Assembly (NCBI RefSeq): GCF_001652725.1
Contig: NZ_LWHJ01000011.1
Coordinates: 806,001-870,000 of the forward strand
DNA: 64,000 bases
Direction: 5' to 3'
Origin: Pedobacter psychrophilus
GTDB lineage: Bacteria; Bacteroidota; Bacteroidia; Sphingobacteriales; Sphingobacteriaceae
The notes under the pieces are model-generated. The model ran no database searches. It was not told where the DNA came from and saw only the letters and a list, made by a program, of their open reading frames with translations. A program made the translations under genes and the position numbers. Below, piece after piece: positions 13,565 through 52,382 of the stretch. Positions within the stretch are counted from its first letter, which is position 1, and every line of letters begins with the position of its first letter.

Positions 13565-13640
13565 GGCCGTTTTAACAGGATATTCGCTATAGTTTATTTG
13601 TGAAATTATAACAAAAAAGCTGTCGCTAATATCTATAACG
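13565..13640. repeat. Palindromic intergenic repeat, family 1, copy A (degenerate)
   Basis: Begins AGGCCGTTTTAACA and ends CTATAACG. The inner halves ATATTCGCTATAG and CTGTCGCTAATAT are near-complementary, so the whole folds as a hairpin. It aligns with the better copies at 21.6, 29.3, 50.2 and 52.3 kb but carries more substitutions. It occupies most of the gap between proS and the next gene. Confidence 0.5.
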
Positions 13641-13687
13641 TAAACGACCATATCTTAAAATAATATTAAAACTTTAAAACTATCAAA

Positions 13688-21625: not shown

Positions 21626-21705
21626 GGGCGTTTTTACGGGCTTTACACTATATCTTTCTCCGCCTAAAAAGGCGAAGAAAAGGATGCCGTTTCAATCCCT
21701 AACGC
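21626..21705. repeat. Palindromic intergenic repeat, family 1, copy B
   Basis: Starts GGGCGTTTTTACGGGC and ends CCTAACGC. The central hairpin is TTCTCCGCC / GGCGAAGAA. The element ends 14 bases before the DUF3820 start codon. Confidence 0.75.
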
Positions 21706-29329: not shown

Positions 29330-29404
29330 GGGCGTTTTAACACGCTTTCCGCTATATCTTTTTTTCTGAAATGAAAAAAAGGATACCGCTTCAATCGTTA
29401 ACGC
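29330..29404. repeat. Palindromic intergenic repeat, family 1, copy C (best-formed)
   Basis: Starts GGGCGTTTTAACACGC and ends CAATCGTTAACGC. The inner arms CGCTATATCTTTTTTTC and GAAAAAAAGGATACCG are near-complementary around a 6-base loop. This copy defines the family layout. Confidence 0.8.
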
Positions 29405-29425: not shown

Positions 29426-29458
29426 AGACTTAAGAAGTTTCAAAAACTTCGTAAGTCT
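29426..29458 (-). terminator. Hairpin after fmt
   Basis: Arms AGACTTAAGAAGTT (29426-29439) and AACTTCGTAAGTCT (29445-29458) pair with one mismatch. It lies 22 bases past the fmt stop on the minus strand. It may be a terminator or a dispersed palindrome. Confidence 0.6.
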
Positions 29459-50240: not shown

Positions 50241-50318
50241 GCGCATTAACGATAGTAGCGGATACCGGCCTGTGTATAAGGCTTGTGAAGTATGAGCGAA
50301 TAGCGTGTTAAAATGCCC
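50241..50318. repeat. Palindromic intergenic repeat, family 1, copy D (reverse orientation)
   Basis: Read on the minus strand it begins GGGCATTTTAACACGCTATTCGC and ends GTTAATGCGC, with AGCGGATACC and ATGAGCG arms. It sits between a family 2 copy and the ychF promoter box. Confidence 0.72.
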
Positions 50319-52284: not shown

Positions 52285-52382
52285 GCGTTAATTATACCAG
52301 CGACATCCTTTTTTTGCTCTTGCCAATTCGCAAGTCACAAAAAAAGATACGTCCGCCAGCTAGTGGATGTGTTAAAACGCCC
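52285..52382. repeat. Palindromic intergenic repeat, family 1, copy E (reverse orientation)
   Basis: Read on the minus strand it begins GGGCGTTTTAACACATCC and ends TAATTAACGC. The central stem CTTGCC/GCAAG with flanking TTTTTTT and AAAAAAA runs gives a long hairpin. It ends 8 bases before the GLPGLI stop codon and could serve as its terminator. Confidence 0.75.

Follow-up and report, generated by a model that had tools for sequence, protein, structure and literature searches.

Is the Flavo-1 RNA family a dispersed, REP- or MITE-like DNA hairpin? Five copies in a 64-kb stretch of Pedobacter psychrophilus

What are the short hairpins that recur between the genes of Pedobacter psychrophilus? The stretch of 64,000 nucleotides analysed here (the window) contains five of them, which the initial annotation described as imperfect palindromes of one dispersed family with a common layout. 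A covariance model (R1), derived from 71 copies in the same genome, two of them from the window itself, was run unfiltered over both strands and ranks exactly these five segments first, where they had been placed, with E-values from 4.1e-25 to 8.9e-9; the sixth match has an E-value of 0.15. The best-scoring copy, at 29330..29404 on the forward strand (93.8 bits, E 4.1e-25), has ACG/CGT as its second stem and lies between genes that Pfam identifies as an aminotransferase class IV and a formyltransferase; the best match of the window's formyltransferase is a Sphingobacteriales MAG (77%), the best named genus being Pedobacter (72%). The copy at 21626..21705 (forward; 83.1 bits, E 6e-22) has GGG/CCC in the same stem, and that at 13565..13641 (forward; 53.1 bits, E 4.9e-13) is degenerate, with an AGT/GCT variant in the upper stem. 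Two copies lie on the reverse strand: 50243..50318 (49.8 bits, E 4.6e-12; begun at 50241 in the initial annotation), a subtype with CTCATAC..GGTATCC in its upper part, situated upstream of a YchF-type GTPase gene (again by Pfam), and 52285..52382 (38.7 bits, E 8.9e-9), in which an insert containing GCTGGCGGAC disturbs the second stem. The exact wording of the common layout fits the copy at 29330 best, and the other four vary, mostly in paired fashion, the second stem being GGG/CCC, ACG/CGT or AGG/CCT.

The five segments are members of Rfam family RF01705, Flavo-1, with the same sequence and structure, and the family is therefore already known. The Rfam model places two of the five above its gathering cut-off (21626 with 58.9 bits and 29330 with 58.5 bits), on the strand opposite to that of the initial annotation. 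The copy at 50243 scores only 24.6 bits (E 0.51), below the cut-off, and those at 13565 and 52285 give no match to the Rfam model up to E 5; these three are joined to Flavo-1 only through model R1. Flavo-1 is typed as an sRNA in Rfam, and in the original description (Weinberg et al. 2010, PMC2864571) the relevant entry calls it a probable RNA that is not cis-regulatory. The passages concerned in a transcriptome study of F. psychrophilum state that Flavo-1 matches give no real functional clue (PMC9723704), and those in a 2022 review place it with the most abundant sRNA families of bacteria, without function (PMC9029176); RF01705 also occurs in PMC3765529 and PMC7682815. A search of the open-licence PMC literature returned no paper treating Flavo-1 as mobile DNA.

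The genome of P. psychrophilus (4.0 Mb in 33 contigs) has at least 132 matches to the Rfam model at E<=10, at least 99 of them over the cut-off, among the 150 of 1067 first-look candidates that were scored, in agreement with the prediction of a high-copy intergenic family. The true number must exceed 132, because the matches listed lack three of the five copies in the window; extrapolation from the window's five copies in 64 kb would give about 300. By pattern, left arms number 68 and right arms 106; of the 100 right arms that were listed, four are absent from the 132 Rfam matches. Of 91 copies read in this genome, 86 lie between two open reading frames (ORFs), three overlap ORFs of 79-83 amino acids and two lie at edges. 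At E<=1e-6 Flavo-1 occurs in 24 of 41 genomes, this one included, and in none of 14 control genomes, ten of which have matches at E<=10, none over the cut-off. Genomes of the same genus have from 1 to 82 matches among those listed, with 87 candidates scored in each, and across the phylum Flavo-1 is found in at least 50 of 395 genomes, or 21 of 171 genera, with 11 candidates scored per genome. Neither of two copies queried matched any plasmid or phage record, and three Flavo-1 patterns hit 0, 0 and 1 viral contigs; the family therefore looks chromosomal.

We lean, without great confidence, towards the view that Flavo-1 is a REP- or MITE-like dispersed, structure-conserved mobile DNA element, whose mobiliser is probably not a Y1 transposase. 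The picture drawn in the initial annotation, of a dispersed family resembling REPs or MITEs, is right in outline, its wider interpretation being partly supported. On its strand the left end of the element is TTTGGGCGTT and the right end AACGCAAA, which do resemble the outer ends of a REP or MITE; the consensus of the left end is TTTGGGC in 76 aligned copies. Inside these ends is a three-pair stem, mostly ACG/CGT, GGG/CCC or AGG/CCT, followed by a T-A or A-T pair and an internal loop, in which conserved pyrimidine mismatches on this strand are purine mismatches on the other. Above the loop come an R-Y pair and a C-G pair, then an upper stem, ATC/GAT, with one extra-helical G that is conserved at alignment column 76, and at the top a stem of T-run and A-run with a variable loop.

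The hairpin is strongly supported by covariation. Of the 91 copies read, 73 have both end anchors by pattern, 72 of these are 62-95 nt long and 71 could be aligned to give the rows of the model. The annotated imperfect palindrome is borne out by these 71 copies, in which standard pairs fill 98.6% of 1347 stem cells (19 pairs); pairing in the outer stem is flattered, because the end-pattern anchors fix part of it, the inner pairs being unaffected. Stem changes are double in 130 cases and single in two, where shuffling gives 45.4 double changes and sliding the structure no more than 8. At the T/A pair, 37 copies have UA, 33 AU and one GC, with no broken cells. For three pairs with two states each, all eight combinations are present (in 14, 11, 9, 9, 5, 3, 3 and 1 copies, a tally that covers 55 of the 71, the other 16 having further states), and the pair states have therefore been exchanged or have arisen repeatedly.

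Genus g32, which we take to be Flavobacterium, has the same core with differing outer parts, either TTAGGAGCTATTTCC...GGGGCTAGG or, judged by eye, a second hairpin within a longer left part; long left parts of this kind are also seen in other genomes of the P. psychrophilus genus. The left end in g32 is TTAGGAGC or TTAGAAGC (33 copies). In another genome, G296, copies of 51 nt have almost no upper hairpin. Taken together, the variation of the outer parts in g32 and the near absence of the upper hairpin in G296 leave the internal loop and its two flanking stems as the constant part. The minimal G296 copies, of about 51 nt and without the T/A stem (L478-L483), are each preceded by a long left part beginning GAGCGAA. 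A separate observation concerns the exact palindrome TCCGCCAGCTGGCGGA, which occurs six times in 483 loci (L430 among them), in at least five cases inside a Flavo-1 copy (L011, L017, L126, L150 and L370); many of these loci were chosen around Flavo-1, the element being a small part of each.

Has the element spread recently? In G296, 16 of 105 pairs among 15 copies compared, of the 87 listed, are at least 95% identical, one of them fully so over 71 nt that include the variable top, and by the look of their flanks the near-identical copies sit at unlike sites. Only one such pair was found among 73 copies compared in P. psychrophilus, and spread therefore seems less recent there than in G296. By alignment score the nearest neighbour falls within the same group for 57 of 73 P. 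psychrophilus copies, 24 of 30 from G010 and all 36 from g32, a result that is favoured by the different trimming of the groups at their ends. The near-identical copies of some genomes suggest recent activity, in which case the mobiliser should be findable.

Comparison of orthologous gaps, made between species only, gives the presence and absence that the initial annotation anticipated. The slot at 29330 is filled in none of ten relatives in which both neighbours align (the gap in G003 being 0.8 kb), and that at 13565 in two of nine, one of which, G012, has a copy of another subtype. At 52285 the corresponding place in the single relative compared, again G012, is occupied by a copy of the same orientation, also of another subtype, and in G005 the gap that corresponds to 50241 has a weak match (E 0.00085). 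Eleven of 30 copies in G010 fall near P. psychrophilus stretches that were examined. When five shared-gap pairs of G010 and P. psychrophilus were ranked, L365/L123 proved a plain ortholog, at rank 1 of 30, and the others ranked 18, 26, 9 and 13, the copies ranked for L355 and L359 being those that define the locus rather than the relic or degenerate copies in the shared slot; L117/L368, which has no anchor, was left out of the ranking. The L379/L113 pair is inverted, slot L373 is empty in P. psychrophilus, and the G010 slot of L355/L110 keeps an end of the P. psychrophilus copy beside another, inverted copy. Some slots persist between species (13565, 52285 and L123/L365). In a joined-flank search for empty sites, 19 locus pairs had a spanning match; the five pairs viewed yielded no exact element ends, the intergenic flanks being too diverged to align well at both edges. 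From these sequence comparisons we infer that Flavo-1 is mobile.

Target-site duplication, proposed at the outset as a check, does not stand out at lengths of five bases or more, either in 73 P. psychrophilus copies (5-mers 21 against 19.8 expected, 6-mers 1 against 3.3) or in 33 g32 copies (5-mers 0 against 2.75 expected); in the g32 test 4-mers are in excess, at 167 against 136 expected. The left flank is AT-rich and poor in C, with T at position -7 in 76 of 76 copies and at -6 in 69 of 76, and in g32 it carries T, T and A in 31, 25 and 28 of 33 copies; the right flank has only a fading preference for A. Orientation relative to GC skew is 51:37 in P. psychrophilus (p 0.17; 88 of 91 copies, three having no usable skew neighbours), 23:14 in G245 (p 0.19; 37 copies, counted by hand) and 45:22 in G296 (p 0.0067; 67 of 87 copies, the other 20 lying on contigs with no skew sample). 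The bias runs in the same direction in all three genomes (pooled p 0.0011), and G296, the only one significant alone, had already shown a contig bias when it was sampled. The replication-strand bias is thus weak, and its source could be loss rather than insertion.

Single-strand transposition of the IS200/IS605 kind leaves a left-side preference without duplication and a strand bias, and the ends of these elements form bulged hairpins. Flavo-1 is similar in all these respects, with no clear target duplication, a left-side preference, a bulged hairpin and a weak strand bias by GC skew, and by analogy the left preference, the lack of duplication and the strand bias may be the trace of such a process, though they are no proof of it. 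It differs in that no Y1 gene is firmly linked to it and in that a single hairpin makes up the whole element. To REPs and REPINs with their RAYTs it is close in the many short, extragenic, imperfect hairpins per genome and in the lack of any gene-bearing copy seen, but it is longer (75-100 nt), has no GTAG or GTRG tag at its left end, and the RAYT-type genes inspected carry other repeats. With MITEs and ERIC-like sequences it shares dispersal, non-coding character, pseudo-inverted ends and the absence of a transposase gene; to our knowledge, ERIC has no known mobiliser. Unlike them it has a conserved internal loop and covarying stems and no clear target duplication; of the classical features of a DDE MITE, neither a duplication of five bases or more nor, by arm patterns in the P. 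psychrophilus genome, a parent transposon with the same ends was found. Some of the IS200/IS605 features are described in the sections concerned of a survey of TnpA_REP proteins (PMC6006769).

How might such an element move? A hairpin with a constant core, in which a stem leads to an internal loop whose halves (CCRCT / GCCGYT) are paired and then to a variable top, would be recognised as folded single-stranded DNA. The element, copied or transferred in trans, would insert on the 3' side of chromosomal sites rich in T and poor in C and would leave no target duplication; filled slots might later be lost or refilled, or have their inner hairpin exchanged. The single-stranded substrate, the enzymatic movement and the reuse of slots are steps that we infer. 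In its fullest form, with an unrecognised non-Y1 enzyme that reads the loop core on folded single-stranded DNA, inserts 3' of T-rich sites and refills or rewrites its slots, the proposal would turn a family filed as sRNA into an abundant chromosomal parasite or symbiont; this we advance only tentatively, as a possibility with the odds against it. The pairing of the core in old copies and the persistence of some slots fit selection for a host function equally well.

Could the hairpin then be kept because it is useful to the host, as a binding site, a terminator, a protector of mRNA 3' ends or an organiser of the chromosome, and be homogenised by exchange between copies? Orthologous copies do keep the structure where their near flanks have come to differ (L044/L045 and L365/L123, by eye), the mixing of pair states in all eight combinations gives the copies a mosaic look, and copies lie nearer to gene ends than to gene starts, with medians of 45 and 62.5 nt against 113 and 116.5 nt. 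No gene arrangement or orientation is favoured among the 86 intergenic copies, however, their contexts being 24 ++, 29 --, 22 -+ and 11 +-, where gaps of at least 100 bp in the same stretches (element gaps included) number 45, 43, 35 and 19. The mostly empty slots at 29330 and 13565 and the single plain ortholog among five ranked pairs also speak against a host site, as do five genomes of the same genus with only 1 to 6 copies each among the matches listed. We regard a selected host site as unlikely, albeit the best of the alternatives. A comparison of the 475 ORFs near copies, all against all, gave no large cluster drawn from unrelated contexts, clusters being assessed by size and synteny, and hence no recurrent neighbour gene.

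The Rfam classification itself, of Flavo-1 as a gene for an sRNA or as a transcribed RNA structure, draws on the strong covariation and the conserved internal loop, whose mismatches are purine-purine on the Rfam strand. Non-standard pairs, as written on the strand of the initial annotation, comprise 16 A-C, 2 G-T and 3 others, so that wobble-compatible pairs lean to the Rfam strand by 16 to 2 (p 0.0013); 11 of these 16 fall in one short helix, and the remaining 5 against 2 are little informative. The Rfam strand is also the better fold in three of three pairs as DNA and, as RNA, in the single pair compared. Signals of transcription are another matter. Around 73 copies no shared promoter was apparent, the promoter consensus TAnnTTTG lying in the 60 nt upstream of 2 copies on the G strand and of 6 on the Rfam strand, against 2-5 in four control stretches. 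A shared terminator was not apparent either, a run of five T within 14 nt downstream being found in 0 and 6 of the 73. At least 132 listed matches with near-identical dispersed copies would be unusual for an sRNA gene. In F. psychrophilum, as far as the relevant parts of that study go, several 5' transcripts coincide with Flavo-1 matches, but the matches are indistinctly sense or antisense and many lie outside transcripts (PMC9723704). We prefer a DNA element to an sRNA gene because there is no common promoter or terminator and no set orientation to genes, because near-identical copies are dispersed and differ in presence between species, and because they have no clear duplication, a left flank rich in T and poor in C, and a strand bias, if a weak one. 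An sRNA gene consequently seems to us quite unlikely. If Flavo-1 is instead a mobile DNA hairpin, its annotation as an sRNA misleads, and its copies offer a testable system.

Returning to the mobile element that we favour, the enzyme which the initial annotation suggested was a REP-associated tyrosine transposase (RAYT, TnpA_REP) or another transposase with matching ends. We too had once favoured a RAYT, via subclass 2.6, which in the Bacteroidetes is flanked, according to the section of the survey that treats it, by atypical REPs without GTAG (PMC6006769); the flanks of Y1 genes and a scan of 50 Y1 loci now tell against it. Y1_Tnp is present in 35 of the 41 genomes, but G033 and G039, with 25 and 6 Flavo-1 matches, have none at E<=0.001. 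Twelve RAYT-type loci carry other repeats, and in none of them do the 450 bp preceding the gene or the 350 bp following it contain a complete Flavo-1, one lying just beyond, some 0.5 kb upstream of the gene, in L095; the RAYT of G296 likewise has a repeat of its own, other than Flavo-1. Matches to Flavo-1 occur in five of the 50 Y1 loci (183 kb; L095, L097, L059, L087 and L102, the last weak and near a broken gene), and R1 over the same loci finds L095, L097, L087 and L059, with L257 weakly (E 0.009). All five matches lie in the 31 loci of the same genus or family, somewhat above the 2.35 expected there from listed copy numbers (P 0.09), the true expectation being higher because it rests on counts of matches listed; in the eight Y1 loci of P. 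psychrophilus itself R1 finds one copy, against 2.8 expected from the density in the window.

A 13-base Flavo-1 right end does abut the repeat hairpin of a RAYT in P. psychrophilus, about 100 bp upstream of the gene (L092, ~1933-1945). It lacks the rest of the element and may be either a copy truncated at the REP or a chance placement. Nor was a gene-bearing version found in this genome, where no listed right arm lies 160-6000 nt from any of the 68 left arms (pattern, up to three mismatches), all of which sit at listed compact copies. It is accordingly improbable that Flavo-1 represents the REPs of a RAYT, for instance of subclass 2.6, and its mobiliser is probably none of the Y1 (IS200/RAYT) transposases found here. 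Least credible of all is a derivation from attC-like integron cassette sites spread to secondary sites, which the imperfect hairpin, the conserved extra-helical G at column 76 and the AAC/GTT near the ends might suggest, but which is highly improbable given that attC boxes read RYYYAAC / GTTRRRY, to which the ends do not conform when the alignment is read by eye (the right end, GTTAACG, misfits GTTRRRY), that an attC core is not conserved in sequence as that of Flavo-1 is, and that Flavo-1 copies are of mixed orientation relative to genes.

Finally, some observations concern other repeats in these genomes. The gap that holds the copy at 29330 also contains a near-perfect palindrome, AGACTTAAGAAGTTTCAAAAACTTCGTAAGTCT, at 29426-29458, which matches the repeat beside a Y1/RAYT-type gene of the same genome (C22:574767, L091); to judge from this match, a RAYT-type REP appears to be present in P. 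psychrophilus as well. In L094, L095, L096, L105 and L108, RAYT-type genes have before them, by eye, one or more partial copies of their own beginning together with the repeat hairpin, as though this part of the gene had been copied in tandem along with its REP. Downstream of an IS200-like Y1 gene of P. psychrophilus (L090) lies a dense array of CCGCCCC..GGGGGC hairpins.
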